From Armatimonadota bacterium (GTDB lineage: Bacteria > Armatimonadota > Hebobacteria > CAIYQO01): DNA of 34,135 nucleotides. The notes under the pieces were generated by a model, which saw only the letters and a program-made list of their open reading frames with translations, made no database searches and had not been told where the DNA came from. Below, piece after piece: positions 8,694-33,809 of the stretch (position 1 is the stretch's first letter; the number at the start of each line of letters is the position of its first letter). The stretch is from the NCBI GenBank assembly GCA_020060775.1, contig JAGUZN010000036.1, positions 1 through 34,135 on the forward strand, written 5' to 3'. Both the position numbers and the translations under genes were made by a program.

Positions 8694-8836
8694 GCGACCT
8701 CTCCTTTTCTGCAGCCACCTGTCCCGACGGCGCGAATGAAGCAGGCTCATGTGCCTGCCACATACATCCTGCCGGGGGTATCCGTACAGGGTGGCGTCGG
8801 GTTGCCAGATGGAAGAACGACTATGACACGATGCTC

Positions 8837-9991
8837 TTATCGGTAACCTGTACGAGCTTCCGCATATTCCTCGTAAGCGCCAAGCGTATGGCCTGTGGCA
8901 ACAAAGGCGCGCATGTTCTCCTCCGGCGTGGCATAGGGCGTTTGGTCGCCAACGCTGAGAATGAAGCCGCCGCCGGCTTTGGCCGCATCCATGCAACGAC
9001 GTACATCCGCCTCCACGTCAGCCGGGGTTCCGTTCAACATCACGGTAATCGAGTTGACATTCCCTTTCAATGACACGCGACTACCGAATACGCGCTTCAC
9101 TTCCGCCAGATCGACATCGCCGGTCGGCGGTGGCTCCAATGCATCCAGGCCATCCACGCCCATGTCCACCGTGATCGATAGGGCTGTGCGCGAGCGACCG
9201 CACATATGGTACTGCACCGGCTTGCCATAGCGATGTGCGACTTCGCACACCGCCCGGCCGAACTCAAGCCCGTACCGCTGGTGCAATTCCGGGCTGATCA
9301 GGCTCATCGAAGTGCTGCTGCCGCCGAGCCCGAGTGAGTCGAGCGGGGTCTCACGGAAGATGCGGTCGAGCAGCGTGACGGCATACTCGCGGTAGGCCAC
9401 GAACAGGTATTCCATCAACTCCGGGTAATCGTAGAGATCCATGACCATGTCCTGTGTGCCGCGCAGGCTATCCCACCAATCAATCGGCATCGGCAACCAA
9501 TAGCCGACATGGGCACGATCACCAATCGCATCATAGGCCGCGAGGGTTTCGGTCACCCCCTTGGTGTCCGGATGCTTCAGGAGCTCCAGTACTTTCGGCG
9601 CATCCGCCTCCGGATCTTTGACCAGCGTCGTCAACCGGCTCAGCGGGGTATGCGTCTCCAGAAACAGGTCGCTCGACAGATCCCCCTTCGGCGTGTGAAT
9701 GACACGCGTGTAGCGAACCTGCTCTGCCGTCTCCGCGATATTGACAATTTCAACCGGCGGGTCGTGTGGCGAGGGTTCTTCTTCGAGATGCAGATAGGCA
9801 TCGGCGCCAAAACGCTCGTATTCCGTCTCCACCCGGGCACGCCATAACGGCATCTGGCGGCGCCAGAAGAATTCGATATAATCATCCGTGCTGTAACGCA
9901 CGGGCACCATCTCGCTTAGCCCGAGCGTGACGGGCACGCGGTCCGGCGTCCCACCGGCCATGGCAACCGTGAGGCGTTCTTTCGGGGTCAT
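8837..9991 (-). CDS. Uroporphyrinogen decarboxylase-family (URO-D/MtaA-like) protein
   Basis: 384 aa; MTPKERLTVAMAGGTPDRVPV...VQYHMCGRSRTALSITVDMGVDGLDALEPPP. Confidence 0.8.
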   Translation of the reverse strand: MTPKERLTVAMAGGTPDRVPVTLGLSEMVPVRYSTDDYIEFFWRRQMPLWRARVETEYERFGADAYLHLEEEPSPHDPPVEIVNIAETAEQVRYTRVIHTPKGDLSSDLFLETHTPLSRLTTLVKDPEADAPKVLELLKHPDTKGVTETLAAYDAIGDRAHVGYWLPMPIDWWDSLRGTQDMVMDLYDYPELMEYLFVAYREYAVTLLDRIFRETPLDSLGLGGSSTSMSLISPELHQRYGLEFGRAVCEVAHRYGKPVQYHMCGRSRTALSITVDMGVDGLDALEPPPTGDVDLAEVKRVFGSRVSLKGNVNSITVMLNGTPADVEADVRRCMDAAKAGGGFILSVGDQTPYATPEENMRAFVATGHTLGAYEEYAEARTGYR

Positions 9992-10009
9992 GATCGTAAC
10001 CTCTTTCTG

Positions 10010-11611
10010 TCAGAGCATGCGTGAGAACCAGAACGAGTACAGATCCGCATTGCGCAGGGCAAAGAGGATGCGGACTGCCCGTCCCTGCAGCGCCGATAAA
10101 TCTTCGCCTCCGCGCCAGGCGAGCACTGCATCGACCTGATCGCCGCTGAACGGCACCGCATCGTTGTCTACCTGTTCGTCAACGCGTCGGGTGCCAGGTC
10201 CCGCCAGCCGAGTGCGCTCCCCCTCTTCGGGAAAACGCAGGTTAGGTGAGGCGAGGTAATCGCCAATCCCAAAGCCGGGGATCACCCGACCGCTGTCTGC
10301 ATCGCGTATTTCCGCCAGGATTTCTCCATTCTTCGTCCGTGCATTGATATGCAGAGTGGGTCCGTCCACAACGATGGGCCGTGTCAACACGGCGCCTTTC
10401 CGCTCGCTCGCGCGCAAGGAGGCGAAACCGTCGAGCCGCAGCCGTGCCAGAAACAGGGCACTCGATACCCGCTCCTGGGCATAGTCCAGGCCGGTGTCTT
10501 TCAATAGGGACGGCATCACATGACTGTGCCGATAGCCGGTGTAGTAGAACCACAACTCGTCACCACGCTGGATCGGAGGACAGGCAAATAGCATGCCGTT
10601 ATCGTATATCTCGCGATCCGTGCTGGGCGACAGGGCGATGAACGGCTTGCGTTGCCCAGGGCGCTCCCAGTGTGTCAGATCGTTACTCCAGGTCAGGGCT
10701 GGCCAGATCAAGCCATCCTGATTTGCGGAACTCTCATCGGCAATCCAGTACCCGGAATGCTGGAACATGGCCGGCAGACCGATATACATCCCGTGATAGG
10801 GGAATACCGGCATATTGTAAACATCCATCCAGAAATGCTCAGGATTGCAGTATAACGGCGAGCGGTAATCAGGGTCACCAGCATACCGCTGTAATGCTTC
10901 AGCGCCCGCCTGCCGGTCTGCGGCATCCGCGTGATAAATGAATTCCGGCGATGTCCAGACCACCCCATCCGTGCTGGTCGACAGCCCTACCTGCCTGCCG
11001 TATTCGGGCACGGCTCCGGAGACATCCATACTGTGCCCGTACAGTTTCACCGTGGCGATCAGCAACCCGTGTTCCGAATCACACCACAAACGGTACTCAT
11101 CCGAACTGAGGATCACGGGATGATTGGGATCACCGACGGGTTGCCAGCGGAATCCATCGTGAGATTGCAGGGGGAACAGCCCTATCGGTTGGGCGCCACC
11201 CTTATACATCAAACCGCAGTAGCGTGCAGCGGAAACCCCATCCCAGGATGGATTCGGCGCCAGCACCATCTCTTCATATCGGCCGGAGGGATGCCTGCCG
11301 GTGTCCACGATGTTATTCTTCCGGCTGCCGGCGTATTCGACTAGATGCAGGTTCGGGCGATGCCAGTTGATGCCGTCTTCGGATTCGGCGTATAAGGGCA
11401 GCGAGTTATCCCCATCTTGTCCGATATACCATAAGCGCCACCGACCATCTTCAGTGGGCAAAGGCGCGTTCCATACGCACACTTCTCCCTCAATATCGGT
11501 TGCCGGCGCCAACACGGGCCGCCCATGTTTGACCGGCTCGTGGAACACACGTTCAATATGCTCGTCCAGTTCGATATGTGCGTTATCAAGGAAAAAGTAT
11601 TTATTCATCAT
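10010..11611 (-). CDS. Glycosyl hydrolase-like (GH32/GH43-type beta-propeller) protein
   Basis: MMNKYFFLDNAHIELDEHIERVFHEPVKHGRPVLAP...WRLWYIGQDGD...YAESEDGINWHRP; C-terminal VRILFALRNADLYSFWF. Start moved from 11803 to 11611 to avoid overlap. Confidence 0.7.
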   Translation of the reverse strand: MMNKYFFLDNAHIELDEHIERVFHEPVKHGRPVLAPATDIEGEVCVWNAPLPTEDGRWRLWYIGQDGDNSLPLYAESEDGINWHRPNLHLVEYAGSRKNNIVDTGRHPSGRYEEMVLAPNPSWDGVSAARYCGLMYKGGAQPIGLFPLQSHDGFRWQPVGDPNHPVILSSDEYRLWCDSEHGLLIATVKLYGHSMDVSGAVPEYGRQVGLSTSTDGVVWTSPEFIYHADAADRQAGAEALQRYAGDPDYRSPLYCNPEHFWMDVYNMPVFPYHGMYIGLPAMFQHSGYWIADESSANQDGLIWPALTWSNDLTHWERPGQRKPFIALSPSTDREIYDNGMLFACPPIQRGDELWFYYTGYRHSHVMPSLLKDTGLDYAQERVSSALFLARLRLDGFASLRASERKGAVLTRPIVVDGPTLHINARTKNGEILAEIRDADSGRVIPGFGIGDYLASPNLRFPEEGERTRLAGPGTRRVDEQVDNDAVPFSGDQVDAVLAWRGGEDLSALQGRAVRILFALRNADLYSFWFSRML

Positions 11612-11672
11612 CGCTACTTCCGGTGTACAGCCAATACAGAGTATCAGTAACCGTCTTCCGCATGTACGGCGA

Positions 11673-12110
11673 TTACCCTGCGCTACGGCGAACGACCACA
11701 CTGCAGCGGGCTTGATCGCAGGCCGACAGGTCGACGGTGCAGGTATACCCCAGTGGCTCCAGCACGCGGCGGTACAACACGTCGCAATGCCCACAGTAGT
11801 CATGGTAAGCCGTGACGTGCGGCAACTGCAGCAGCCGGCCTTTGGATGGGCAGGCGTGCATGTGGATGCAGAACTCCCCCGCCTCCTCGTCCAGCGTCAT
11901 GGTGAAGTCCGCCGCTTCTTCGTTTAAGGTGTGGCTCCAGTACTGCCAGCACCCGCGCAGGCCATCTTCCTGTACCAGTGTCCGCAGATTGTCGAGAAAT
12001 CGATCCGATAACGCACACCAGAAACCATGGACAGCCTCGCGTCCCCCGCGGGCCTCGAGAAAGTCAAACAGTGCACTGTAGGCCGGGATGAAATCGGTGC
12101 AGGGAATCAC
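11673..12110 (-). CDS. L-2-amino-thiazoline-4-carboxylate hydrolase-like small protein
   Basis: 145 aa; CIHMHACPSKGRLLQLPHVTAYHDYCGHCDVLYRRVLEPLGY; GTGA overlap with upstream gene. Confidence 0.55.
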   Translation of the reverse strand: MIPCTDFIPAYSALFDFLEARGGREAVHGFWCALSDRFLDNLRTLVQEDGLRGCWQYWSHTLNEEAADFTMTLDEEAGEFCIHMHACPSKGRLLQLPHVTAYHDYCGHCDVLYRRVLEPLGYTCTVDLSACDQARCSVVVRRSAG

Positions 12111-12584: not shown

Positions 12585-13604
12585 TCACCCTCCCTGTGGT
12601 GCGAACTTAGCCGAATCCAGAAGGGTGCGAGCATGCAGTTGTCCCCCACCCCCACGGTGGGCAACTGCATCGACTTCATCTACCGGAGGCAGCAGCACAT
12701 CGGCATCGCGCTCCAGTGCTCGCGCAATCGCGCGTTCGCAGGCAGGTGTCAGCGAGTAGTGCAGGTAGTTCTGCCAGGTGGAAAAGATGCCCAACTCGCA
12801 GAGCAGCTTTTTCTCACCGGCCAGCCAGCAAGTTAACGCCTTGCCACCGTATACGGCGTACATCAAGCGATTCATGCGCCGTTGCAGGCACCAGGCTTCG
12901 CGCCACAACCCTGCGCGCGCCGCGTGCAGAATACGATTGGCCAGATAGCCATTGAAGGCTCCCCCGCCGAGCAACAATCCATCATAGCCCGCCTGTAAAT
13001 ACCCAACACCAGCGAACTCATCGCCGGTGAGCAGGGTCAATGCGGGGCGTCCCTGACGCGCGGTCAGTGCAATCCCGCGACGGGTTGGGCAGGCTGAGCT
13101 ATCCTTGATCAGCACGACCCGTTCTTCCGCATAAATCTCAGCCAATACCGCCTCAGGCACAACCAGCGGGCCTTCAGCGCCACGATCATAGATCCCCACC
13201 GGCAGCGGGCAGGCGCGGGTCGCTTCGCGATAGAGAGCGATGATATGTTTTGGGGTAGCGTTCATGAGGAAATAGGGCGGTGCAATCACCGCCAGCGTCG
13301 CCCCGCACTCGGCGGCGTGGACCATGTTATCGATGATGCGCGCCGCGGAATTATCGGTGACCTGCACGGCCACGGGCATTCGTCCCCCCACCGCCTGTAC
13401 CACCGTGCGCACCAGCGTCCACCGATCCCGCTCGGGCAGCCAGGGCCCCTCGCCGTTGGTTCCGGCGAGGAATAGCCCTTGCACACCCAGGCGGAAGTGG
13501 TGTTCAACCATGCGCTCCACCGCCGGGATATCGATGGCCATCTTGTGGGTGAACGGCGTTGGCGCGGCCGACCACACACCGCCGGGTAACTGCAATTGCA
13601 TCAT
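12585..13604 (-). CDS. Dihydrodipicolinate synthase/N-acetylneuraminate lyase family protein
   Basis: GVWSAAPTPFTHKMAIDIPAVERMVEHHFRLGVQGLFLAGTNGEGPWL, classic DHDPS-family N-terminus. Confidence 0.85.
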   Translation of the reverse strand: MMQLQLPGGVWSAAPTPFTHKMAIDIPAVERMVEHHFRLGVQGLFLAGTNGEGPWLPERDRWTLVRTVVQAVGGRMPVAVQVTDNSAARIIDNMVHAAECGATLAVIAPPYFLMNATPKHIIALYREATRACPLPVGIYDRGAEGPLVVPEAVLAEIYAEERVVLIKDSSACPTRRGIALTARQGRPALTLLTGDEFAGVGYLQAGYDGLLLGGGAFNGYLANRILHAARAGLWREAWCLQRRMNRLMYAVYGGKALTCWLAGEKKLLCELGIFSTWQNYLHYSLTPACERAIARALERDADVLLPPVDEVDAVAHRGGGGQLHARTLLDSAKFAPQGG

Positions 13605-13613
13605 GATCACGTC

Positions 13614-14729
13614 CTACACACGAAAGGTGAACCAGCGAATATTCGCCACATTATCTTCATAGCACCAGAATGCCAGATAGATCGCACCGTCTGATCGAGT
13701 GGTCAGGCTAGGCGCGCCAAATCGCAGGGTGGCGAAGTTCTGTGCCATCGACGCCTCCTGCGCGGTGAGTCCCGCCTCCTGCGCTCCCCACAGCGGCTCT
13801 TGTGCATCAGTCACCCACCGCTCACCCTCCAGGTGTGCGAAAGCCATCCACAACCCCGGGCGGTCCATCCGTCGATACGCGCACAGCAACCGGCCATCCT
13901 CCAGCAACAACGGGGTGAGCGTCTGCCCATAGAGATCCGTCGCGCGCGGGGGCGTCCAGGTGGCGCCGCCATCGTCGCTCACGGCGTACTGGTTTGGCAG
14001 GTCGCACCCGGCAACCTCATCGTATCCCCAGGCCAACGCAAGAAGGCGACCGTCAGGGTACTCGACAATTTTTGACTCCCAGAAGATGCATCCCGGGGCG
14101 TGCATGACGTCGAGGTACGTTGGCCAACTCGCACCACGATCCTCGGATACGAAGGCGACCATACGCATGCCATTCGGGCAATAGCCGTCCCAGCCACGCC
14201 AGGTGGAGGTGGGGAGCAACCAGCGTCCGCCACGGAGCGGCGTCACCGGCGCACACAGCTCAAACTCCGGACCGATAAGTGGCGGCGTAAGGCGTTCCGG
14301 TGCGCTCCAGGTGCGGCCGGCATCCCGGGAACGGAGCAGGGCCAACTCCGTCGGCACAAAGCCGAGGGTATCCGGATTGCACAGACCGGCATCAGGATGG
14401 GCGCTACGGTCAGCACGCACCATGAATGCCACCAGTTCGCCGTCAGGCAGCACGGTAAGCCGGCAGGAGTCGGAAGTCAGTCGCGTCGGCGTACTGGGGG
14501 CAATCGGTCCCTCCAGCACCCAGTTCCGGCCGTTATCGGTGGAACGCGCGACATGGGTATGGCAATTCACCGCTTCAAAGGCTTCGCCAAGCACCAGAGT
14601 CGCCAGCATCGTCCCGTGGTCCAGACAGACTACCGATGGGAAGTAAGCCTGCACGCTGCGGAGGTGCGGGGCATGGTGGCGGTATATCAAACCAGTCGTG
14701 ATATTACGCAACAGCGCGTGTTCCAACAT
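13614..14729 (-). CDS. Sialidase/neuraminidase-superfamily (BNR-repeat) exo-glycosidase
   Basis: SxDxGxxW repeats: RSTDNGRNWVLEG, RSRDAGRTWSAPE, SEDRGASWPT, SDDGGATWTPP. SD AGGAGA before ATG at 14729. Confidence 0.85.
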   Translation of the reverse strand: MLEHALLRNITTGLIYRHHAPHLRSVQAYFPSVVCLDHGTMLATLVLGEAFEAVNCHTHVARSTDNGRNWVLEGPIAPSTPTRLTSDSCRLTVLPDGELVAFMVRADRSAHPDAGLCNPDTLGFVPTELALLRSRDAGRTWSAPERLTPPLIGPEFELCAPVTPLRGGRWLLPTSTWRGWDGYCPNGMRMVAFVSEDRGASWPTYLDVMHAPGCIFWESKIVEYPDGRLLALAWGYDEVAGCDLPNQYAVSDDGGATWTPPRATDLYGQTLTPLLLEDGRLLCAYRRMDRPGLWMAFAHLEGERWVTDAQEPLWGAQEAGLTAQEASMAQNFATLRFGAPSLTTRSDGAIYLAFWCYEDNVANIRWFTFRV

Positions 14730-14849
14730 GGGTTCTCCTATGCTGGTCATGGATAGCAACGATATCGATGCCCTGTGTTCACCAAGCTCTCTTAATGCAC
14801 TCCACGCAGTGGCATGGCACGACAGGATTGCTCATGTAAGCACACATCC

Positions 14850-14885
14850 ACTATACCGAAATTCACGCGAGCACACTTGCACTAT
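14850..14885 (-). promoter_or_regulatory. Promoter/operator of sialidase operon: ATAGTGCAA (14885-14877) - 21 nt - TATAGT (14855-14850)
   Basis: Shared architecture with the sites at 17574, 20950 and 26325. Confidence 0.65.
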
Positions 14886-15046
14886 TCGATCAACCGTATA
14901 ATAAAATCCAAGCTATTTCCTCTGACTCTGCGGTACTCGTACAGCAATAGTGATAAGTCTATAAACAATATATACAATATACCATATACAATGACGAACG
15001 CCATGCCCGACAATTCAGCAGAGCCTATTTTCGCACACAGATACGA

Positions 15047-15075
15047 TTGACACGCAAAGAAGTGGGTGCTAAGAT
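15047..15075 (+). promoter_or_regulatory. Candidate promoter of AraC-family gene: TTGACA (15047-15052) - 17 nt - TAAGAT (15070-15075)
   Basis: Perfect -35 hexamer with optimal spacer. Confidence 0.55.
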
Positions 15076-15132
15076 TTTAATACATTATTCATACTGATGC
15101 CTCGCACGCCAATCATGACATCAAGGCTGGTA

Positions 15133-15141
15133 TTGCACTAT
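15133..15141 (+). promoter_or_regulatory. TTGCACTAT motif in the leader of the AraC-family gene
   Basis: Exact match to the regulon motif, 30 bp upstream of the GTG start. Confidence 0.55.
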
Positions 15142-15170
15142 TAAGGCGTCCGCCGGAATGCTAGAAGACG

Positions 15171-16109
15171 GTGACCGAGCGCATGATCTCTCAACCGCTG
15201 AATCCATTGCACCGTTACCCCTTTCCGACACAGCAACGGCTGTGGCGGAACATGGCCGTGCAAGACACCACTGTTGAACTGCACGGACACCAAATCAGAA
15301 TACACAGCGTGTTGCTCCGCCGTTGGAGAACAGGCCAGGGCATCAAAATGGATTTCGTCCACAACCATTGGTTCTTCGAAAGCCATTTTGTCCTGGACGG
15401 CACCCTCACCTCACTGATGGACGGACGCCCTCCAACCGACGAAGGCGCAGTTATGCTACTTCCCCCCCACTCTCCGCATGCCTGGCGGCTGGAAACGCCG
15501 GAGTGCATTGATCTCATCCTCACGTTCACGGTCTTACCGATTCCGGAAATCGTCATACCGGCGGCATGGCCGGTATCGCCAGAGGTGCTTGCCGATCTTT
15601 CGCACCTGCTCCACGAAGCTGAAAAAGGGGGAGCAGGCTGGCGGGATCGCATGAAAGCCCATCTGATGCTGTTGTTCTCGCATATATTTGTGCTGTATAA
15701 CTGGCCGCAGGTGGAGCGCGAGGAGTTCCCTACCCAGGAGCGCCAGTTCATCCTGGAGATCGACCGCTTTCTCTATGATCACCTCGCCAGCCCCATTTCC
15801 CTGGAGGATGTCGCCGACCACATGCACATGAGCGTGAGCAGCCTCACACGTCGCTACCGCCGATTGACCGGCATGTCGCTGATTAACCAGCTGATGACTT
15901 TTCGATTGGATGAGGCCGCGAATCTGTTGATCAGCACCGACCTACCCATCGCTGAGATCGCCCGGCGCGTCGGCTTCAACTCGCAAGCGTATTTCTGCCG
16001 ATGCTACAAGGCCCGGGCTAGAGGAGGGCTCTCGCCCTCGGAAGCACGTCAGGCGTTGCGCCACCCCCAGGAAGAACGTTCCCCGCGTCAGGCGCGCAAG
16101 CCAGGATGA
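15171..16109 (+). CDS. AraC-family transcriptional regulator (cupin-like N-terminus, C-terminal double HTH)
   Basis: 312 aa; ISLEDVADHMHMSVSSLTRRYRRLTGMSLINQLMTFRLDEAANLLISTDLPIAEIARRVGFNSQAYFCRCYKARAR. Confidence 0.9.
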   Translation: MTERMISQPLNPLHRYPFPTQQRLWRNMAVQDTTVELHGHQIRIHSVLLRRWRTGQGIKMDFVHNHWFFESHFVLDGTLTSLMDGRPPTDEGAVMLLPPHSPHAWRLETPECIDLILTFTVLPIPEIVIPAAWPVSPEVLADLSHLLHEAEKGGAGWRDRMKAHLMLLFSHIFVLYNWPQVEREEFPTQERQFILEIDRFLYDHLASPISLEDVADHMHMSVSSLTRRYRRLTGMSLINQLMTFRLDEAANLLISTDLPIAEIARRVGFNSQAYFCRCYKARARGGLSPSEARQALRHPQEERSPRQARKPG

Positions 16110-16134
16110 CCGAGACCAGGGCCATAATGATTGT

Positions 16135-16165
16135 GAAGGCTCCGGGAATACCTCCCGGAGCCTTC
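16135..16165. terminator. Hairpin between convergent genes, probable bidirectional terminator
   Basis: GAAGGCTCCGGGA-ATACC-TCCCGGAGCCTTC, 13-bp perfect stem; no strong U-tract. Confidence 0.7.
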
Positions 16166-16187
16166 GTACATGGAATTTGATCTACGG

Positions 16188-17525
16188 TTACTTGCCTCCC
16201 AACCACTTCATGTTGTACTTGTCGGTGAAGTAGCGGTTCATCATCTCGATCTCCGCATCGCTCAACGCACGGTTGTAAATGAGGAATGCCCCGATGTCAA
16301 TGGCACTGAAGTAGCTGCCACATCGCGTACTATCCCAGGGTAAGCCCGGATTGAAGATCGCCTTGTTATTGAGACCGCCGATCGAGTAGCGGTTGCGCTG
16401 GGCAAGAAACGGGCCCGCAGTCACGGTCACCGATGCCATCTGCTTCGCGTTGTAATACGTATCGAGTGCCGTGCCTGACACCCGCGTGGTCGAAACCCAG
16501 TACTCGGTCTTTTTCGGGCGTAAACTTCCGGAGTTTGGGATAATGTTCATCGTGCTATCAGGCGGGTTGGTTCTGGCCCAGGTGCAGTCCCAGGTCCAGG
16601 CTTCGAGGAAATTGGTCAGTGCCGCGGGATCGTCAGGATATATCCCGTAAAACAGCTTCTTCGTGCCATCGGAGAACTGATCGCTTCCCGTCCCGGTGCC
16701 ATACCGCGTGAATCCCAATACTAAAAAGATGGTGATGTTGGAGGTGTCGCTCAGCGTGAAGGTGCCGTTGACCGCACGGCCGTAGCGATAAGTTCCATTC
16801 GATAACGTGCGCACCGCTGGGAATCCGTTCAACCCCGCAGGCTGCGGGATGACGTTCAAGTCCTGCGAGCCGGCCATAGTGGAGTCGTAATCCCAGAAGA
16901 CGACGGCGTCATTGCCATTGCCACTGCGGTCGGGCCAGGTTTTGAAGGGCGACAGCGTGATCGCCTCCGCATCCAGCCACACCTTCATCCCGGATAAAGG
17001 TAGCAGGTACCCCTTGGCAATCTCCACGTGGCCATCCAGGAACGAGGCCACCGAGGCGTTGCTGTGGCGCTGATCCGTATCATCGGCGAAGTAGGCCACG
17101 TTGTCATAGGTGAGCGGCGACGTGGTGGCCGCGTGCTGGCCATCGGTGGTGAGGAAGGTCTCGGTCGGTGACTGCAACTCGCCCAACGACATGCTGCTCA
17201 CGTAGCTGTTGAAGACATAAGCATTAGCCACTTTTTTGCCCTTGGTCGGGCACATGAGGATGTTGCGATCCACGTTGATTTCCGGCCAGACGCTGGAGTG
17301 ATCAGGCAGCACCTCGTCATGATCCTGGGCATACATAAGAATGGCCACGGCGATCTGCCGCTGATTGTTCAGGCAGCTCGACTGTCGGGCCTTCTCCCGC
17401 GCTTTCGCGAAGACCGGGAAGAGAATGGCGGCCAGGATGGCGATTATGGCGATGACGACGAGGAGTTCAATCAGGGTAAATCCCCACCGAGTACGGCCGT
17501 GTGGTGGATAAGCAGTAGAATGCAT
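16188..17525 (-). CDS. Pseudopilin-type protein 1 (N-methylation signal + H-X9-DG) with LamG-like C-terminal domain
   Basis: [67 protein letters not shown]. Confidence 0.9.
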
Positions 17526-17573
17526 GTACCACCTCCTATCAAATGTATCAATAAACCAGGCGATTTCATGGCA

Positions 17574-17609
17574 ATTATCGCACGGATTACAAGGGGAAAT
17601 TTGTACTAT
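17574..17609 (-). promoter_or_regulatory. Promoter/operator of pseudopilin 1: ATAGTACAA - 21 nt - GATAAT
   Basis: Same spacing as the other regulon sites; distal half-like site TATAAATATCAGGGC at 17623-17637. Confidence 0.65.
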
Positions 17610-17731
17610 CAGGGAAAACGATTATAAATATCAGGGCGTTCTAACAGCAAATGCGGAAGCGACGTATTGTGGCAAAGGATTGCTCGGTGAGGCCGCGGAG
17701 CACAGGATCGATAGGTCGTGGTGCAATGACG

Positions 17732-17764
17732 AGCACCCCGGGAGAGACGCTCTCCCGGGGTGCT
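17732..17764. terminator. 15-bp perfect hairpin downstream of pseudopilin 2
   Basis: AGCACCCCGGGAGAG-ACG-CTCTCCCGGGGTGCT; ends 23 nt beyond the stop at 17787. Confidence 0.7.
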
Positions 17765-17786
17765 TACGCTTGCTCGTGATCAGAAT

Positions 17787-19181
17787 TCAGCGGTTATACA
17801 GGCGTTTCAGATTGTACTTCTGCAGCAAGTAGTCGCGCACAGCGGTGTCTGTGCTCATGTCCTTGTGATAGATGAGAATCGCGGCGATATCCACGGGAGA
17901 GGGGCACCTGATGTATCGAGTCACATTATTAGTGTATAGATGCACACCCGCTCCCACGGTCAGGCGAATCGAGCCGCCAGCGGTGCCAAATGTCCCACTG
18001 CCAGCCGCGGGAGGCGTGTTGAAATAGATGCTGCTCGGATGCCCGGCGCCATATGGGTTCCTCCCGTTCTCATAGTAGGTAACGGTGGTACCGCTCATCT
18101 GGATTTCCGATACCACGAACTCCTGCGGTTTCGGAATCCATTCGACAAAGCCGGCGTACGTACTGCGCGTCAGGCCTTTACTGCCCAGGCAGAAGGAGTT
18201 TCCATGATTGTCAACAAGGCTGGCGCCGGCCTGGCGTAAGTAGCCTACCGTTGTTGTGAAGTTGATGTCGGCACTGGCCGCTCCATCATTCGAGTAATAC
18301 ACGATGGGGTAATCGAGCGCTGATGCTGTCCCACTGAAGGGAACTTTCGCGCGGTAGACGGCATACATCGCCAAATTTGTCACGTTGCCACCAGATAAAG
18401 ACCCGGTGAAGAAGGAGCCTTGGGTATACGTCGTTTTGGTGATGGCATCCAGACTGATGGCCGGTCGCCCATTGAGGCCATCCGGCTGTACGAGCTTAAA
18501 GCCCACGGTGCTGCGGGTGGTGCTATCATAGCGCTGGCCACTGTCGCCACGGTTACCCACCAGCGTCATGCCGCTGCTGCCTCGATCCGCCCATTCGGCC
18601 GTCCCCGTGTCAAAGCCGTAGTCGGCCTCGAACCAGCACACCGCGCCACTGGGTGGCAGTATCGGGGTGTTGACCACGGCCACATGTCCGTCCAGAAAGG
18701 AGGCCACTCCCGCATTGCTGTGGCGGTAGTCCAGGTCATCGGCGAAATAGGCCACATTGTCGTAGGTCACTGGCGAGGTGGTGGCCGCGTGCTGCCCATC
18801 ACAGGTGAGCGTCACGCCGTCCGGACCGGTCAACTCGCCTAACGACATACTGCTCACATAGGCGTTGTAGACGTAGGCGTTGGCGATCTTCTTCCCCTTG
18901 GTGGGGCACATCAGAATGTTGCGGTCGACATTGATCTCCGGCCACACATTCGAGTGGTCTGGCAGCACCTCGTCATGATCCTGGGCGTACATGAGGATGG
19001 CCACGGCAATCTGCCGCTGGTTGTTCAGGCAGCTTGACTGCCGCGCCTTCTCCCGCGCTTTCGCAAACACCGGAAAGAGAATAGCAGCCAATATGGCTAT
19101 AATCGCGATGACGACGAGTAGCTCAATGAGCGTAAACCCCCGCCGTACCCTGCCGTACATCGGGCACACAGTAGAATACAT
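17787..19181 (-). CDS. Pseudopilin-type protein 2 (N-methylation + H-X9-DG) with a different lectin/LamG-like C-terminus
   Basis: [58 protein letters not shown]; divergent C-terminal ~280 aa. Confidence 0.9.
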
Positions 19182-19233
19182 GTCTTACCTCCCAACAAGG
19201 TTGATCTGGTCATCAGTGATGATCACACAACTC

Positions 19234-19330
19234 ATTATGACATACATCTGCGAGAGCTGTTACGCCTTGAATTGCAGTATACGGCATTGTTTTTGCACTA
19301 TTTGAGCAAAGTATGTTGCGGTATCAGGGC
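19234..19330 (-). promoter_or_regulatory. Promoter/operator of pseudopilin 2: CATAAT -10 (19239-19234) with three tandem motif copies
   Basis: TTGCAGTAT 19272-19280, TTGCACTAT 19293-19301, TTGCGGTAT 19316-19324; spacings 21 and 23 bp. Confidence 0.55.
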
Positions 19331-19511
19331 ACAAGTATGCAGAGCTCATTCGCTCCCCTGCATGTGACGGTGATTTCACCGCCGACTGTTCCCCCATGGC
19401 CGCTTCAGTGAGCATAGCGGACGAGCATACGGCGTCGATATCGAGGCATACAAGGCAAGCCTGTGTGAAGTTCAGGGTCTCGCAGGAAGGGGGCGGAAGG
19501 TGCCTGCACAA

Positions 19512-19545
19512 AGAGTCCCCTGGTGCAAAACCACCCGGGGACTCT
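19512..19545. terminator. Hairpin downstream of pseudopilin 3
   Basis: AGAGTCCCC...GGGGACTCT with inner TGGT...ACCA stem and a 3-nt bulge; weak T-run on minus strand. Confidence 0.6.
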
Positions 19546-19567
19546 CTATCGCCTTGGGGCAGCTGGA

Positions 19568-20902
19568 TTACTGTGCGCCGAGCCACTTCAAGTTGTACCT
19601 GCTCATAAAGTAGCGGTTCATCTGATCAATTTCCGTATCGCTCAGCGCACGGTTGTAGATAAGGAAGGCGGCCACATCGATGTTGCAGAAGTAGGAACCG
19701 CATCGATTAGTATCCCAGGGCAAACCAGGATTAAAGAGCGCCTTATTGTTGAGCCCTCCCACGCAATAGCGATTGCGTCCGGGGAGGAATGTGCTGTTGA
19801 CTGCCATGGTCTTATGCTCAATCATCTTGGCGTTGACATACGCGTGCCCAGCTGTTCCCGCCTTCCGCAAGGCCGAAACCCAGAACTCACCCCGCGTTGG
19901 CATTACAAGACCATTGGCGTCAGTCATCGTATGCACCAGATGCGTCCAATCGTGTACGCGGGCATCTGAAAATGTGTTGTAGATCGTTTCTACCATAAGG
20001 TAGTTCGTCATGGCCGCCGGTTCGTCGGGGAATACCGTGTAATAGTACTTGTAGGCAAAATTCATCTCATCACTGCCGTAGTGGTTAAAACTCAGTACGA
20101 TGAAGGTGGTGATATTCTCGGTATCGCTGATCGAGACGGTACCATTGACCGCCCGGCCATGTGCATGGATGCCATCGGAGAGCATGCGTACGGCGGGGAA
20201 CCCATTCAATCCCGCAGGCTGCGGGATAACTTTCAAGTCCTGCGAGCCGGCCATCACGTAGTTGTAATCCCAGAAGACGGTAGCGTCATTGCCGTTGCCG
20301 CTGCGGTCGGGCCAGGTGGTGAAGGGCGATTGCGAAATCGCCTCAGCATCCAACCACACCTTCATCCCGGATAAGGGCAACAGATACCCCGTGGTGATCT
20401 CCACATGCCCATCCAGGAACGAGGCCACCGTGGCGTTACTGTGCCGCTGGTCCGTATCATCGGCGAAGTAGGCCACGTTGTCATAGGTGAGTGGCGAGCT
20501 GGTGGCTGCGTGCTGGCCATCGGTGGTGAGGAAGGTCGCGCTCGGCGCCTGCAATTCCCCAAGCGACATGCTGCTCACGTAGCTGTTGTACACATAGGCG
20601 TTGGCGACTTTCTTCCCCTTCGAGGGGCACATCAGAATGTTGCGGTCGACATTGATCTCCGGCCAAACATTGCTGTGGTCGGGCAGCATCTCGTCGTGAT
20701 CCTGGGCGTACATCAGGATCGCCACGGCGATCTGCCGTTGATGGTTCAGGCAGCTCGATTGCCGCGCCTTCTCGCGCGCTTTCGCAAACACGGGGAAGAG
20801 GATCGCGGCCAGGATGGCTATTATAGCGATGACGACGAGAAGCTCAATCAGCGTGAACCCCTGTCGCACACGGCTAAGCATCGGATACATCGTCAAATCC
20901 AT
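19568..20902 (-). CDS. Pseudopilin-type protein 3 (N-methylation + H-X9-DG) with LamG-like C-terminus, closest to pseudopilin 1
   Basis: [81 protein letters not shown] shared with protein 1. Confidence 0.9.
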
Positions 20903-20949
20903 GCCTTTCCCTCACTGCGTGAATCCGGGAGAATTGACTGGCAAAAATT

Positions 20950-20985
20950 ATTATGGCACAGATGGCAGGGGTCGGCTTGCACTAT
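20950..20985 (-). promoter_or_regulatory. Promoter/operator of pseudopilin 3: ATAGTGCAA - 21 nt - CATAAT
   Basis: Same spacing; distal half-like site TATCACGATGCGGGC at 20999-21013. Confidence 0.65.
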
Positions 20986-21009
20986 CCGGGCGTATATATA
21001 TCACGATGC

Positions 21010-21038
21010 GGGCGATCTCATATACGCTGGGATCGCCC
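21010..21038. terminator. Short hairpin after CBM9-like gene
   Basis: GGGCGATC-N13-GATCGCCC, 8 nt beyond the stop at 21046. Confidence 0.4.
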
Positions 21039-21045
21039 CATGACT

Positions 21046-22557
21046 TCATTCGGTAGAGAACCATCGAGCATAGCGCAACTCAGCCTGCAGGGAACGATAG
21101 GCGGCATCGACAAAGTTGAGCAGCGCATACATCCTGGTGATATGCTCCCAGTGTTTCCCCTCACCCTCAACCTCGGCTGGGAGTGTTTGCATGTACTGTT
21201 CCGTGCGCGCAATACGGTCGCCAAACATGAACTCCGGTGTATCAGCGACATCAGCGATCTGCTGCTTCACCACAGCCCATTCCTGCACCTTCTCTCGACG
21301 CCATTGCGCAAACTCTTTCGTGACAAGCGTTCCGAAAGCGAACGGGGTATGGAAGTTATTCCCCACGGCGGCCCAGGTAGCGGCGCTGTGCTCCCGATTA
21401 CACGTAATATTCATCCGCCAGCCGTCCATCGATGGGATGCGATCGAGTTTCAGGTCGCCGGCTGGGATCATCATTTCCAGATTCCACCCATCTTCATCCA
21501 CGCTCACCCCATATCTCCACTGGCCGTTCCAGGATGCATCCATCCCCATGCCGTCATACCGGTATCCAGCCAACGATGCCACGTATTGAACGTACCAGCC
21601 CTGGCCGGGTGGCTGCAGAAACACTTCGACCGAATGTCGATCGGTATAGATATCCCCGGCCCTGTCACCGCTCAACGGCTTGGCTGCCAACGCGCGCGCA
21701 ACGCGCTGGGCATCAGCAAGTTGCACCTCCACCCCAAGATAAACGGCCTGTTCATCGTACAACGCCTGGAAAGTCGTCCGCTCGGTGGCAAGGAGTGTCT
21801 GCTCGTGAGCAAGGCGGAAGCCGGAGAACTTGACGGCCGATTGCCAACAGTCCTCATCCAGTTTCCCATCGATCACCATCGGCTGCGCGGCAGCCGAGGC
21901 AAACGCGACACGCGCATCGTGCTCCTTCGGGACCGGTTGCGCCTCAACGTGTTCGTCCTCCCTCAACATACGCCCAATAAATATATCATCGACCAGCACC
22001 TCCCCCGTAACTGCCAGGCGTGGATAAATGGTGGTCGGCGCACTGCCGCCGATGAGGAAGCGTTGCTCGATCAATGTCCATGTGTCGGCGACGGGTTCGC
22101 CTTTTCGCTCCAATAGATACGGACCACCCTCACCGTACACCGTAAAATGCATCGTAATCGTTCCGGCCCCTTTAGCCATATACCGGACAATATACATATC
22201 CCCGCTTCGGGTATCGTACGCGCCTTCAGACACCTTCTCTAAATAGATTGATCCGCTCAATCGTAACGAAGACTCACCGGAGTACACGGCTTCGGTCTCG
22301 CGCTTCATCACATATTCCGTGCAAGACAGTTGCGAGAAAACGGCAGGGACCAACAAATTGCCGGTCTCACTGACAGACATCTGCCACGCCCTCTTCACCG
22401 TCAAGTGGTTGTACCGGCTAGAGCCGGGGCTCGCTTCATCCCATCGCTCCATGCCGCCATCCCGAACGAGATTGGGGGTGACTTCACTGGCGAACGCTAT
22501 GGTGATACTCATAACCAGAACGCCGGTAACCAGCATCGCTGAAAAGAGCTTGCGCAT
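21046..22557 (-). CDS. Secreted CBM9-like carbohydrate-binding protein
   Basis: ORF to 22581; MRKLFSAMLVTGVLVMSITIAFA signal peptide; IDGKLDEDCWQSAVKFSGF...ALYDEQAVYLGVEVQ...DRHSVEVFLQP. Confidence 0.75.
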   Translation of the reverse strand: MRKLFSAMLVTGVLVMSITIAFASEVTPNLVRDGGMERWDEASPGSSRYNHLTVKRAWQMSVSETGNLLVPAVFSQLSCTEYVMKRETEAVYSGESSLRLSGSIYLEKVSEGAYDTRSGDMYIVRYMAKGAGTITMHFTVYGEGGPYLLERKGEPVADTWTLIEQRFLIGGSAPTTIYPRLAVTGEVLVDDIFIGRMLREDEHVEAQPVPKEHDARVAFASAAAQPMVIDGKLDEDCWQSAVKFSGFRLAHEQTLLATERTTFQALYDEQAVYLGVEVQLADAQRVARALAAKPLSGDRAGDIYTDRHSVEVFLQPPGQGWYVQYVASLAGYRYDGMGMDASWNGQWRYGVSVDEDGWNLEMMIPAGDLKLDRIPSMDGWRMNITCNREHSAATWAAVGNNFHTPFAFGTLVTKEFAQWRREKVQEWAVVKQQIADVADTPEFMFGDRIARTEQYMQTLPAEVEGEGKHWEHITRMYALLNFVDAAYRSLQAELRYARWFSTE

Positions 22558-22600
22558 GATTTCAGTCCTTCTCAACAGCACACATCGGTGGTGCCCCTGT

Positions 22601-25600
22601 TCATCGCACGGTGAATCTCAGCTCCTGCTGCTGCCCGGAAATCACTTCCGTGAGCCGCAGCGTGTACTCGCCCTTTTTCTGGTTGAGGGCCAGCGGGATA
22701 TGGTGACTCGTCACCCCTTTCACCGCCAGCTTCTTCGTGTAGGCGGCGATCACGTGATTATCCTGCAACACTTCGAGGCGCACCGCTAATGCGACATGTT
22801 GTAAAGCGGCGGGGATCGTCGCGATCTCCACCGCCACGGCGTCGCCGGGCCGGTAATCCTGCTTGCCGATTTTCACCACCAGTCCATCTTCGACACGCGC
22901 GGGGAGCAAGGCCAGCAGCTTGGCCTGCGCCGGCAGAATGCCGGCTGCCACCATGTCGGTGTAACCCAGGTACGTCTGCTGCCGAACATTATACGCATGC
23001 ATCTTCCGGTCCAGCTTAAGGATGAACTCTTCCCCGGGCGGATCGGCAACCGTCTTATCCGGCAACACGCCGACCAGCATGGCAGGCCCATTATCGAACA
23101 CATACGTCCGCAGATCCGTGCGGGTGTTGCCCAGGACATCGAGCACCTCAACATCGCCCTTGGCCCCGCCGTGCGTAATCAACGTCTGGCGGAGGGCGCG
23201 CCAGTCGTTCACCGCCGGTGCTCCGGCCAGGAACAGCCCATACCCCTTCCCGTATGGCCGGGCGCTTGTCCCGGTGAAATCAAAGACCTCGTCCAGTGCG
23301 CTCCGGGTAGAGTTGATCGCCCCGCCCTTAGCGACCACCCCCGTGCCCCCGCAGGTCGTACAGGCGCCCAGCGGGTCGCCGGCGCCGCCCAGGTGGATGA
23401 CCTTCTTACCCTTGCAGCGGGGACAGGTTTCAAAATCCACCGTGCCTTTCGGCGCATTGGGGTCTTCCCCGTACGGGCGCAAGTACTCATCCATTACCGC
23501 CGGACGGTAATCGGCAATCACCAATCCTCCGGCAGCGGCAAAAGCCTTGATCCGTTCCACCCCCTTACGCGAGATGGACTGGCTGGCCGGCAGGATGAGG
23601 ACACGCTGTTGGGGACTGAATTGTAATTGATCCTCCACAAAATCCTCGCCAACACACTGGTAATCCATGCCGACCCGGCGCAGCATATTGGTGAACGCCT
23701 CCACAGCGCTGAGCCAGGCCATCTCCTGTGGATGGTACACGCCGGCGATCTGTGATCGGTTCGACCAGAGGATCAGGATGGGATCAATACGCTTATGACT
23801 GGACAGCAGTAGCCGGTCAACACCGCTGTGAATCCCCCGGACTTCCTCCGCCATCTGCTGGAAACAGAGAAACGGTTCGGATAAATCTTTGGTGAAGGTG
23901 TTGTGAATCGGCCACCAGCAGATCGCATTACCGCCGCGGAACAGCGATTCCCATGCCTTGGTGCGCATGTGCCATTCGCTCTGCTCTCCCTGGTAAAATC
24001 CGACATAGTATCCGGCGCTTATCCTATCCGTGTTCTCTTTGTCAAAATGTTCCAAATAGGATTGAACGAAACTGAAACCGTTCTTCGCCATTCGCGGGAT
24101 ATCATAATCTTGCAACTGGGTAATCGCGACGCCGACGCGTGCCCCCGGGTCATACTCCTTGATCAAACTGGCGCAGTACTCGTGAACACGGCTGTATCTG
24201 TCGAATTTATACAGCTTCTGATCCAACCAGCGCGTGGATTGATTCCTTGTCCTGGCATCAAGGAATGAAATCATCACAATATCATCGAAAGAGTTGAAGG
24301 CTGATCCCCAGGTCGTATTGAGCGTATTGATATCGCCATAACGCTCTTGCAGGTATATCCGGTAATCGTTGAGCGCCGCCGGATTATTCCACTCACCGCC
24401 TTCGACGCCGCTCTCATTATTCACGCCGTAGTACAGCGTGCCATAACGCTTGTAGGCCTCGATCCTGGGACGATAGTACTCCCGGTGACCGTCTTTCCAG
24501 GTGTTGCTCTGAAAATCGCCGATCCTACCCGTCCCTGAGTACTGAGAGGGATCGCCAACCTTGAATCCGCCCATATGCCAAACATGGAAGGCAACCTTGA
24601 AGTTATTTCTGGCCAGGTTGTCGGCCGATTGCTGGAACCAGGTTGGCGAAGACCAGTAATGTTCGTCATCGAATCCGGTGATCCCGAACTCGTGAAACAG
24701 CGTGAGATATGTCTTATGTACGCGAGTCGTAGGAGAACCTCCATCGACCAGGAACTGAAACTCGTCAATGTCATTGGACGGCAGACCGGTCCAGGTCTCC
24801 TGTTCGTCCAACACCACCCCGCCGGATAACACCTGGCAGACGATCCGATAGGTGCGGGAGAGGGGATAGGGAATTCTGGCAAATCTGAACCGGGTCTCGC
24901 CGCGCGGAACTTCCACCCGTTGCTCCAGCCGGTTATAGGTATCCCACAACTTGACCACGACCTGGTGCCCCGCCGGCACCGGGGTCGAAAATGCAATCGT
25001 ACCGCTTATCCCTTCGTCTCGGCGGAAGAACGGCTTATCGGCGGCAACGGATGCCAGATACCGGGTATCGGTGACCGTCAGTGCCGTCGACGCCCAATCC
25101 ACCACCCTCCCCCGGCGCTTGACCCAAGCATCCACCAGGTACAGGCCCTGCTTGAGCACCGGGAAACGCGGGGAGAACGCGACGGCGCCATCGTGAGAAG
25201 CGATCTCCTCTTCGCCCTGGGCGAGTACGTGGTTCTTCCGGTCACGGATCTCATAGTAGACCGTCGTCTCCGATGGAATTCGGTGCTCGCTGACAATACG
25301 AAAAGTAATCGGCGCAGCCGGCAGCGCTCCACGACCGATCTCAGCATCTACCGGGTCGGGGCGGACGCTCACTGTGGAAGTTTTCCCGGCCGCATGCACA
25401 ATCGCTTTGGACAGGATCGAGTAATAATAGTTGTAGAATAGGTCATCATCCTCGATCCCGACCGAGGGTGTCAGGCCAAGCTGTCTGACATAATAGGAAT
25501 AAGGATAACCGTAGGTAGACGCATCCTTGCCGTTTTTCAGCAGCAGGTCGTTGTACCGGAGAAACACCACAGTGCCCTCGCCCACTTTACCGGCCTGTAT

Positions 25601-26283
25601 CTCCAGCGGTCCGATCTTACGTGGCGTGAACGCTTTCGTATCGGGATGCAGTGTTTCGAGATCTAAATCCAGCGGGAGCTTTGCTAACGGCACAGTCGAC
25701 CGTACGCTCTCTGCCAGCGCATTGTCGGACGTGAGTTGCATGGTGCGCTGCACATCAGCGCCAACATCCAGCGGCGACACCAGGATGAGCGCCACGCCGC
25801 CCTTCACCCTTTCCAGGATCTTCTGGCGAATATCCTCCGGGATCACGCTCCACTTCACTTTGCCGATGATGATGGCGTGATACTGATAGGCGGGGCTAAG
25901 CAACATCCTGGCGCGCTCATTCAGCGCCTGTTCGGATGGGATATCACAATAAAAACCATCCCCACCCGGCCCGGTATCCCACCATATCTGGTCGCGTCTG
26001 GAGGTGATGATTTCCACATGAGCATCAATACGGGAAGCCAGTTCTACCGATTCTCTGGCGGCATCCATCGGCAGAAAGAGCAGGAGATTCAACCGCCCGC
26101 CAACAAAAGGACGCGCCCATTCGATCCTCGGAGCGAAGTAACTGCCGGGGTAATTGCCGAACCGCGTATTGCTGTGCTGATAATCAACCGGCGTGTGCCT
26201 GCTGTACGCCGTCACTGTTTGTGCGGATAGCTGAGAAAGGCTCATCACCAATAGTGCCGCTAGGATTCCTGTCAGGTTACGCA
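22601..26283 (-). CDS. Large secreted GH42-like (beta-galactosidase-type) glycoside hydrolase with embedded CXXCXGXG-type motif
   Basis: ORF to 26326; start at 26283 (MRNLTGILAALLVMSLSQLSA) follows SD AAGGAG. YYGVNNESGVEGGEWNN...YRIYLQERYGDINTLNTTWGSAFNSFDDI is GH42-like. Confidence 0.75.
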
Positions 26284-26324
26284 TGGAGTAGATCTCCTTC
26301 AACTTGCCAATGACCATCTCATCC

Positions 26325-26360
26325 ACTATACCAGCACTGCTGCTCGCTTACTTGCACTAT
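26325..26360 (-). promoter_or_regulatory. Promoter/operator of GH42-like/CBM9-like operon: ATAGTGCAA - 21 nt - TATAGT
   Basis: GGATAGTGCAAgtaagcgagcagcagtgctggTATAGTGGAT; nearly the same layout as 14850-14885. Confidence 0.7.
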
Positions 26361-26375
26361 CCGTGCAGCCAGCTT

Positions 26376-26610
26376 TCACAATATAATCGATTTCGCATAT
26401 CGCACATAGCGCGCACCGGTTGTGCCTTTCCGCTGGCGGGATGACACGAATCCATATAGCTTCGCGTCCCGTAGCGAGAACTCCACCTTCACCGGCTGAT
26501 GCGTGACTCGCTGCTAACTCGAGCTCTCGGCAATAAGGTAATCGTCAATACACAGGTTGAGTCTGGTGGAACACCGGATCGTACGGTCGAGGTCGTGTCG
26601 CATGCGTATC
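26376..26610 (-). pseudogene. Decayed C-terminal fragment resembling the local glycosidase-like proteins
   Basis: MRHDLDRTIRCSTRLNLCIDDYLIAESSS*QRVTHQPVKVEFSLRDAKLYGFVSS; compare VRILFALRNADLYSFWF (10010 gene) and VIVSIKMRAADLYSIRFA (28636 gene). Confidence 0.45.
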
Positions 26611-26645: not shown

Positions 26646-27413
26646 TTATTTCACCTGTGCTGCCTGGCAGCGTTCCAGTTGACTGCGCCATACCTGGATC
26701 ATCGCGCCGAAGTCCGAGCCGATGATGCACAAATCGGCGCCGGCGGCGATGGCTGCATCCAGCAGCGGTCCCGGGGCGACGAGAATGCCGGCGTGCTTGC
26801 CGGCAGCTCGGGCGGCACGGATGCACGTCGTCGTCATGTCGATGAGTGCAGGATTCGTGAAATCACCGGGACAGCCCAGGTCGGCGGAGAGATCGCCGGG
26901 GCCAATCAAAATGCCGGCAATCCCCTCAACCGCCAGGATGCCCTCCACGTTGGCGACCGCCTGGCAGGTTTCCACCTGCGGGAAAAGGTAGGTCTCCGCA
27001 TTCATGCGTATAACGGGCAACGGCTCCAGACCGAAGTCCGCCGCGCGGCTGCGCGTATTGTAGCCGCGCTCGCCTATCGGGCGGAACTTGCCATGCCGCA
27101 CCACTTCACGAGCAGTCTCCGCATCATTCACCAGTGGCGCCACCACGATCGATGCGCCGATCTCCAACGCGTGCAGGATCTGCTCGCGGCGATAGCCGCT
27201 GGTGCGCACCAGCGGAAGTGCCCCATTCGCCTGTGCGGCCCGGCACATCGCCTCCGCCGTCATGAGATCAGCCGAGGCATGTTCCATCTCGATCCAGATC
27301 ACATCAAAGCCAATACGCGCCGCCAACTCCGCCGTACGCGAACTGGCGCTGTTGATCGAAGCCCCCAGGAGAATGCGCGGCTGTCCATGTATGTCGGTGA
27401 AAATGTCCCTCAT
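26646..27413 (-). CDS. HpcH/HpaI aldolase family (2-keto-3-deoxy sugar-acid aldolase-like)
   Basis: 255 aa; AARIGFDVIWIEMEHASADLMTAEAMCRAAQANG; VAPLVNDAETAREVVRHGKF; GILIGPGDLSADLG. Confidence 0.85.
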   Translation of the reverse strand: MRDIFTDIHGQPRILLGASINSASSRTAELAARIGFDVIWIEMEHASADLMTAEAMCRAAQANGALPLVRTSGYRREQILHALEIGASIVVAPLVNDAETAREVVRHGKFRPIGERGYNTRSRAADFGLEPLPVIRMNAETYLFPQVETCQAVANVEGILAVEGIAGILIGPGDLSADLGCPGDFTNPALIDMTTTCIRAARAAGKHAGILVAPGPLLDAAIAAGADLCIIGSDFGAMIQVWRSQLERCQAAQVK

Positions 27414-27432
27414 GGTGCTGCTCCTCTGTACG

Positions 27433-28626: not shown

Positions 28627-28635
28627 GTAAAGCTC

Positions 28636-30186: not shown

Positions 30187-30190
30187 GGCA

Positions 30191-31270
30191 TTATCTCCAG
30201 GCAGCCGTCAATGCAAAGTCGCCGTACGTGCGGCAGGTCTCATCATACGCCGCAAACAGGTCAATGGGAACCTCCGGGCTGATGGAGTGGGTGCCGATGA
30301 CGACACCGCCATCCCGTCCCAGATCGATCAACTCCCGCGCCTGCGCCCGCACCCGTTCGGCCGGACCATTGATTAAAGTATCGGAATTACACATGCCGCC
30401 GGTGAGGATCAAGCGTGGGTAGGTCTCGCGCAACTGAACCGGGTCCATCCCCGCGCGCCGCTCCATCGGATTCAAGCCATCGATGCCGGCATCGATGAGC
30501 ATGTCGAGGATGGGCAGAATATGCCCATCGGAATGTAACAACACGTAGCGCGCGCCGGCAGCCTTATAGGCGGCGATCATGCGGCGATACGCGGGCAGGA
30601 AGACGCGCTCGAAAGCGGCAGGACTGAACATCGGGGCATCGTTGTACGCCATATCGTCGTATATCCACACGCCGGTGTCACGCAAGTCCCACCGCCGCAA
30701 TGCCTCCACCCCAACGGCCGTGATATGTTCTCCCACCTTGTCCGCCAGCGCCTGCGCCAGCTCGGGGTCAGCGGCAATGTCCTGCAAAAACTCCGCCTCC
30801 CCGCGCACGAACGTGGTGCGCAAATACGGTCCGCCGGTTTTGATGAACACGCAATAGCGCGCGTTCAATCGCGCCAACTCCCGGGCAGCCGCAGCCGCAT
30901 CGGCACACCCGAGCAAGTAGCGACGCTCGTCCATGGGAGACTCGAATTCCACAGCCTCCGGATCAACCCCATCGGGGATGGGTACCTCAACTGTTTCGGT
31001 GAAGTAGGCACCTCGCTTCGGTGTGCGTATGAGGCGTCCCCATGGGTCAATCGCGTACTGGCTGCTGGCATCCTCCCGCACTGGCCGGGCGCGCGAGGGA
31101 AAAGGCGTCTCATCAGGCGGCAATATCCAGATATCGGTCAGCTCTGCCGCCGGCCCAAATCGCGCTTCCCACTCAGCCGGGTATTGCCAGAACTTATCAT
31201 AGCGCGGGATACGATCCGGCGGGCGAAAGGCACACGCCGCTAATACACGCTCACGTGATGTCATCGCCAT
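30191..31270 (-). CDS. Uroporphyrinogen decarboxylase-family protein (second copy type)
   Basis: MTSRERVLAACAFRPPDRIPRYDKFW...VLLHSDGHILPILDMLIDAGIDGLNPMERRAGMD. Confidence 0.75.
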   Translation of the reverse strand: MAMTSRERVLAACAFRPPDRIPRYDKFWQYPAEWEARFGPAAELTDIWILPPDETPFPSRARPVREDASSQYAIDPWGRLIRTPKRGAYFTETVEVPIPDGVDPEAVEFESPMDERRYLLGCADAAAAARELARLNARYCVFIKTGGPYLRTTFVRGEAEFLQDIAADPELAQALADKVGEHITAVGVEALRRWDLRDTGVWIYDDMAYNDAPMFSPAAFERVFLPAYRRMIAAYKAAGARYVLLHSDGHILPILDMLIDAGIDGLNPMERRAGMDPVQLRETYPRLILTGGMCNSDTLINGPAERVRAQARELIDLGRDGGVVIGTHSISPEVPIDLFAAYDETCRTYGDFALTAAWR

Positions 31271-31274
31271 ACGA

Positions 31275-33808: not shown

Positions 33809-33809
33809 G

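Follow-up and report, generated by a model that had tools for sequence, protein, structure and literature searches.

In this contig, one cluster-specific activator of the AraC type probably controls three pilin-like genes, a GH42/CBM9 operon and a BNR-hydrolase/aldolase/transport operon, and would do so through half-sites bearing the word ATAGTGCAA. Judged from the sequence, the activator is most likely the protein encoded at 15171-16109. The window (the whole stretch of 34,135 nucleotides that was analysed) is one entire contig, C120, and the genome that was searched comprises 4,864,111 bases (4.86 Mb) in 440 contigs. The genes concerned are as follows.

15171..16109, plus strand: AraC/XylS-family regulator, 312 aa, with a C-terminal double HTH; the proposed activator
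16188..17525, minus strand: pilin-like protein (N_methyl, DUF1559), 445 aa, with a weak Laminin_G_3 match at the C-terminus
17787..19181, minus strand: pilin-like protein (N_methyl, DUF1559), 464 aa
19568..20902, minus strand: pilin-like protein (N_methyl, DUF1559), 444 aa
21046..22581, minus strand: CBM9-domain protein, 511 aa, second gene of the GH42 operon (20-bp gap)
22601..26284, minus strand: GH42-like glycoside hydrolase, likely starting at ATG 26284 after GGAG (start chosen by inspection)
13614..14759, minus strand: BNR-repeat protein, possible exo-glycosidase (sialidase-like fold)
12585..13610, minus strand: DHDPS-family aldolase/lyase
6000..11803, minus strand: remainder of the same-strand run, encoding an unknown 597-aa protein, a URO-D-like protein and an ABC solute-binding/permease ORF

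A repeated word upstream of the -10 hexamers

The promoter elements upstream of these genes, with the copies of the word labelled as putative half-sites, are listed below.

14850..14907, minus strand: promoter of the BNR-hydrolase operon; distal half-site ATTTTATTA at 14907-14899, proximal half-site ATAGTGCAA at 14885-14877, N21, -10 TATAGT at 14855-14850
17574..17631, minus strand: promoter of pilin 16188-17525; distal ATATTTATA at 17631-17623, proximal ATAGTACAA at 17609-17601, N21, -10 GATAAT at 17579-17574
19234..19324, minus strand: promoter of pilin 17787-19181; ATACCGCAA at 19324-19316, ATAGTGCAA at 19301-19293, ATACTGCAA at 19280-19272, N32, -10 CATAAT at 19239-19234
20950..21007, minus strand: promoter of pilin 19568-20902; distal ATCGTGATA at 21007-20999, proximal ATAGTGCAA at 20985-20977, N21, -10 CATAAT at 20955-20950
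26325..26382, minus strand: promoter of the GH42/CBM9 operon; distal ATTGTGAAA at 26382-26374, proximal ATAGTGCAA at 26360-26352, N21, -10 TATAGT at 26330-26325
15133..15141, minus strand: sixth exact ATAGTGCAA, in the araC leader and oriented opposite to araC transcription
15047..15075, plus strand: candidate araC promoter TTGACA-N17-TAAGAT, a consensus match only (10 of 12 letters, TG before the -10)

The first-pass annotation had reported four elements of the form ATAGTRCAA-N21-NATARY, and we recovered all four on the minus strand, at 14885-14850, 17609-17574, 20985-20950 and 26360-26325. By contrast with these four matches in the window, 100 dinucleotide shuffles gave none (expectation 0.00). 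An unsupervised count of 9-mers in the upstream regions of the window ranked ATAGTGCAA first, with a score of 10, whereas 20 shuffles reached at most 9. At exactly N21, the -10 hexamers of the four promoters together matched 20 of 24 letters, compared with a maximum of 17 in 5000 shuffles of the flanks with any offset allowed. A scan for sigma-70 promoters found no scoring -35 partner for any of these four -10s. The constant N21 at four promoters and the lack of a sigma-70 -35 partner support the earlier placement of the word in a class II-like position, at about -42 to -34, where it would replace the -35; these promoter coordinates assume that the -10 lies at -12 to -7.

When the four N21 promoters were aligned on the word, a weaker copy of it was found exactly 22 bp upstream in each. 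The summed match of these copies was 22 of 36 letters, which was reached in 3 of 5000 shuffles (60-bp flanks, offset free). The two weakest copies agree with the word at just 4 and 5 of 9 positions, so that it is chiefly the other two that support the -22 half-site. The sequence 4-8 bp upstream of the word core, the expected place of a second subsite, was unconserved as read from the promoter sequences.

The constant spacing claimed earlier holds for the four listed promoters but not for a fifth target promoter, that of pilin 17787-19181, which was absent from the earlier list. Upstream of this gene, three tandem copies of the word follow one another in steps of 23 and 21 bp, and the best -10 lies 32 bases after the last copy, that is, 21 + 11, or about one helical turn more. 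The partner of this -10 is a weak -35-like hexamer, GTAACA (19263-19258), with an 18-nt spacer and a TG before the -10. The bare word had been counted four times in the window, which actually holds six copies; the additional ones are at 19301-19293, within this array, and at 15141-15133, between the candidate araC promoter and the araC start. The latter copy could possibly be an autoregulatory site, or it may be fortuitous.

Strong sites are confined to the cluster

Searching the whole genome for the bare word ATAGTRCAA returned 26 copies, six of which lie in the 11.5-kb cluster (14877 to 26360); each of these six is intergenic and on the minus strand. Elsewhere, 18 of the 20 copies were inside ORFs (at least 100 codons) and 2 were intergenic; the hypergeometric probability of 6/6 intergenic copies in the cluster versus 2/20 outside is about 1e-4. 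For the 20 outside copies, the hexamer at N21 agreed with a -10 in at most 3 of 6 letters and the sequence 22 bp upstream agreed with the word in at most 4 of 9, so that none had a -10 or a good partner at these places. The pattern ATAGTRCAA-N22-ATA matched four times in the genome, each time in the window, against one match for the reversed-pattern control. With up to two mismatches allowed, ATAGTRCAA-N22-ATARY gave 52 sites genome-wide versus 72 for the reversed control; four had no mismatch (all in the window), one had a single mismatch and was located inside an ORF, and 47 had two. The first-pass annotation had named an equal frequency of the motif at random genome positions as the observation that would speak against it, and this is not what we found: strong sites are confined to this contig, and a genome-wide regulon was rejected for that reason. 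With all four full matches here and the outside copies mostly in ORFs, the word is a local rather than a global motif.

The AraC-type regulator

The AraC-family assignment of the gene at 15171 was supported by domain, family-model and PDB matches. Its product matches HTH_18 (E 1.9e-18) and, in two stretches, HTH_AraC, and its PDB matches are AraC and MarA domains. About 190 residues precede the HTH, with no Pfam domain match in them, and the best NCBIfam model, AraC, is matched over the DNA-binding domain only and far below the equivalog cut-off. In a scan of the contig, this was the only AraC-, LacI- or GntR-type gene found, and it is placed among the word sites.

The genome contains 37 AraC-type matches, and the nearest paralogue of the 15171 protein is 40% identical to it. 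At E <=1e-35, homologues were present in two other genomes among 291 of the phylum, both from the same family and at most 35% identical, so that there was no orthologous cluster for footprinting. No close relatives were found in the named genomes, and no relatives at E 1e-20 were found in the 11 named genomes that carry related pilins. The clusters of the AraC paralogues were searched for an analogous repeated word and yielded none that was clear; a whole-locus word search with one mismatch in these clusters was too permissive to inform. Upstream of the pilin of the paralogue on C261, we read by eye ATAACGCCC-N21-TATAGT, which is suggestive only. On C77 (18019-18054; L094), ATAGTGCAT-N21-TATGAT immediately follows the gene of an AraC paralogue, with 58 bp left to the next gene, and is possibly a sister site for a related regulator.

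Predicted targets and the rest of the contig

All three pilin-like proteins have a type IV prepilin-type N-terminus (N_methyl above cut-off in each), and they are tandem paralogues, 72 and 48% identical. Of the earlier label 'pilin-lectin', the pilin part stood, whereas the lectin part leans on one sub-threshold match, to Laminin_G_3 at the C-terminus of one of the three pilins (E 0.0041). Structure prediction for the pilin gave a mean pLDDT of 32.5.

The operon downstream of the BNR-hydrolase promoter had been described as a sialidase/transport operon. The same-strand run includes ABC transport components, and we infer that the genes at 6000..11803 belong to this operon. The sialidase label is insecure, because BNR repeats (here a BNR_2 match) are generic, because PDB matches to NanC-type sialidases cover part of the protein only and because the DHDPS-family aldolase scores higher with dapA (74 bits) than with the NanA models (43 and 29 bits), all below cut-off. 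The frame at 6000-8996 is a single one of 998 aa with an ABC solute-binding match (172-352) and a permease match (799-979), and represents either a fusion or two genes read as one frame.

Upstream of the GH42 promoter, a separate same-strand run without the word (26646-33907) encodes an HpcH/HpaI aldolase, a ManD/galactonate dehydratase-like enolase-superfamily protein, a URO-D-like protein, an aldehyde dehydrogenase and a tartrate/isopropylmalate dehydrogenase-like protein, and looks like sugar-acid catabolism. At 1445-3440, two adjacent radical SAM genes, with a Pfam match at 28-191 in each, lie beside a ParB_N-domain gene and are apparently a tandem pair.

Proposed mode of activation and alternative explanations

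As read from these promoters, the layout is that of AraC/XylS class II activation: half-sites in direct repeat, spaced by 21-23 bp, of which the proximal one overlaps the -35. We propose that ATAGTGCAA is the strong promoter-proximal half-site and that an activator dimer would bind two direct half-sites 22 bp apart. The proximal half-site (about -42 to -34) would stand in for the -35 element, and the activator, in class II fashion, would bring RNA polymerase to a -10 lacking a -35 partner. For the third pilin (17787-19181), the proximal copy lies 11 bp further upstream, beside the weak -35-like hexamer, so that activation from the three copies is probably class I-like there. A glycan-derived inducer would thereby turn on the three pilin-like surface proteins together with the GH42/CBM9 operon and the BNR-hydrolase/aldolase/uptake operon. 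Binding, activation, the inducer and autoregulation are features that we infer from the DNA. The earlier proposal that one activator couples these three gene groups gains from the confinement of the regulon to the cluster and from the added -22 half-sites, and has to be modified for the third pilin, which has its own N32 array.

One alternative is that the word serves as operator for another regulator, whose gene lies elsewhere and which acts in trans, such as a different one of the approximately 37 AraC-type proteins of the genome. The abundance of paralogues is consistent with this idea, as is the near-match ATAGTGCAT-N21-TATGAT just after a paralogue gene on C77, and the local 15171 protein is itself a putative binder of the word. 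However, all strong sites are on the contig around a single AraC-type gene, which has a copy in its own leader, and we regard a regulator in trans as unlikely.

We give still less credence to the word being a repressor operator, or an extended promoter element that an alternative sigma factor recognizes, rather than an activator site. The word does overlap the -35, where repressors act too, and at four promoters it keeps a fixed distance from the -10. Activation is nevertheless called for, because the -10s are sigma-70-like and have no -35 partner, and a sigma element is disfavoured because it would not tolerate the 11-bp shift (N32) and because the word recurs at -22; the repetition of the word in 21-23-bp steps and the confinement of its sites to one cluster likewise argue against these readings. 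Least probable of all, in our estimation, is that the shared word is a functionless leftover of duplicated upstream DNA. In its favour, the pilins are tandem paralogues, and two of them have the word at near-equal distances from the ATG (83 and 84 bp), but the GH42 and BNR-hydrolase promoters precede unrelated genes, and the N21 spacers differ and the surrounding upstream DNA has diverged while the word, the -10 and the -22 copy have been kept. An activator acting through the word, most likely the 15171 protein, remains our preferred explanation.

Comparison with known activators

Polysaccharide utilization loci combine a cluster-encoded one-component regulator with glycoside hydrolase and uptake genes. 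The present cluster resembles them in having a local one-component regulator beside such genes, and differs from them in that its surface component consists of pilin-like DUF1559 proteins with their own promoters.

In site layout, the closest parallel we considered is MtlR, an AraC/XylS-type regulator, at PmtlE of Pseudomonas fluorescens, a well-dissected case in which two 15-bp blocks lie at -72 to -58 and -50 to -36 and the consensus is AGTGC-N5-AGTAT-N7-AGTGC-N5-AGGAT, with a 22-bp period (PMC4514859). In both systems, two half-sites in direct repeat with a 22-bp period lie immediately before the promoter core, the consensus word contains AGTGC and the activator is carbohydrate-linked; with the -10 set at -12 to -7, AGTGC lies here at about -40 to -36, the place of the last MtlR box (PMC4514859). 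Unlike MtlR, which has two boxes per half-site, the cluster conserves one 9-bp core, with the strong copy in the proximal position, and no -35 was found at the four promoters, whereas PmtlE keeps a -35 hexamer, TTGTCA (PMC4514859). For MtlR, the distal site is strong and the proximal one weak, and a strong proximal site is reported to have made PmtlE constitutive (PMC4514859). Since the proximal site is the better match here, weak proximal binding may not be what puts these promoters under inducer control; polymerase contact that depends on the inducer is one alternative. As far as the half-sites cited in PMC4514859 allow, the layout is also like that of AraC at araBAD and XylS at Pm, with a C-terminal double HTH, direct half-sites about 21 bp apart and the proximal one at the -35 region, although the half-site words here are different from those cited. 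The switch is of a known kind; driving pilin genes jointly with sugar-degrading enzymes is unusual.

A possible repertoire of pilins with neighbouring regulators

The pilin query had 97 matches in this genome (G000; for example, L182-L221) and 101 in a sister genome of the same family (G001). Across the matches in this genome, the first ~170 residues are conserved and the sequence is variable after them. Among the named genomes, matches came from Armatimonadota, Zipacnadia/WS1, Verrucomicrobia and Lentisphaerae MAGs, none of them close; a sequence signature in the pilin tentatively points to Armatimonadota. A regulator gene was present within 1.5 kb of 28 of the 55 pilins whose neighbourhoods were examined in this genome (LacI 21, AraC 6, GntR 1), often divergent and adjacent. 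Among other genes of 200 aa or more at these loci, 74 of 248 (30%) had one. The figures are no more than indicative, since an AraC gene was the reason for including some of the loci and not all contigs are long.

By eye, the upstream regions of many other pilins have a TTGAC-type -35 and differing palindromes. Operator-like examples at pilins (L110, L113, L117, L133, L144 and L168) include GAAACATGTTTC, GGCACATGTGCC and GGTCGTATT...AATACGACC, and another pilin-upstream palindrome is GGTCGTA...TACGACC. The pilin promoters at C94:5653 and C101:13222 (L178, L179) have in common the longer stretch ATWGTGTAGCGAGCTG...TATGTT. We discounted these two (ATWGTGTAG...TATGTT) as sister sites of the word, as they look duplicated and have an inverted repeat (TGTA...TACA in C101); apparently they represent a duplicated promoter with its own operator.

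These observations suggest that, at many glycan loci, a regulator belonging to the locus controls the pilin of that locus, with the window as the AraC version of this arrangement. More tentatively, and with somewhat more doubt than confidence, we put forward that the window belongs, as a single unit, to a genome-wide repertoire of ~100 pilins with a common N-terminal half and variable C-terminal domains, many of them paired with a private LacI, AraC or GntR regulator and its operator, so that the cell would display only the pilins suited to the polysaccharide in use. In the open-licence literature, we found no description of DUF1559 pilins under private regulators.

The cluster offers a precise regulon, with five promoters, one proposed regulator and one word, that is open to test in a poorly studied bacterial lineage, and it ties pilin-like surface proteins to a glycan-degradation cluster by a putative common switch. 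We consider the pilin-regulator repertoire a more interesting lead than the regulon itself. If the private-regulator pattern is true for the ~100 pilin genes, it would suggest that expanded DUF1559 families are substrate-specific, inducible binding proteins.
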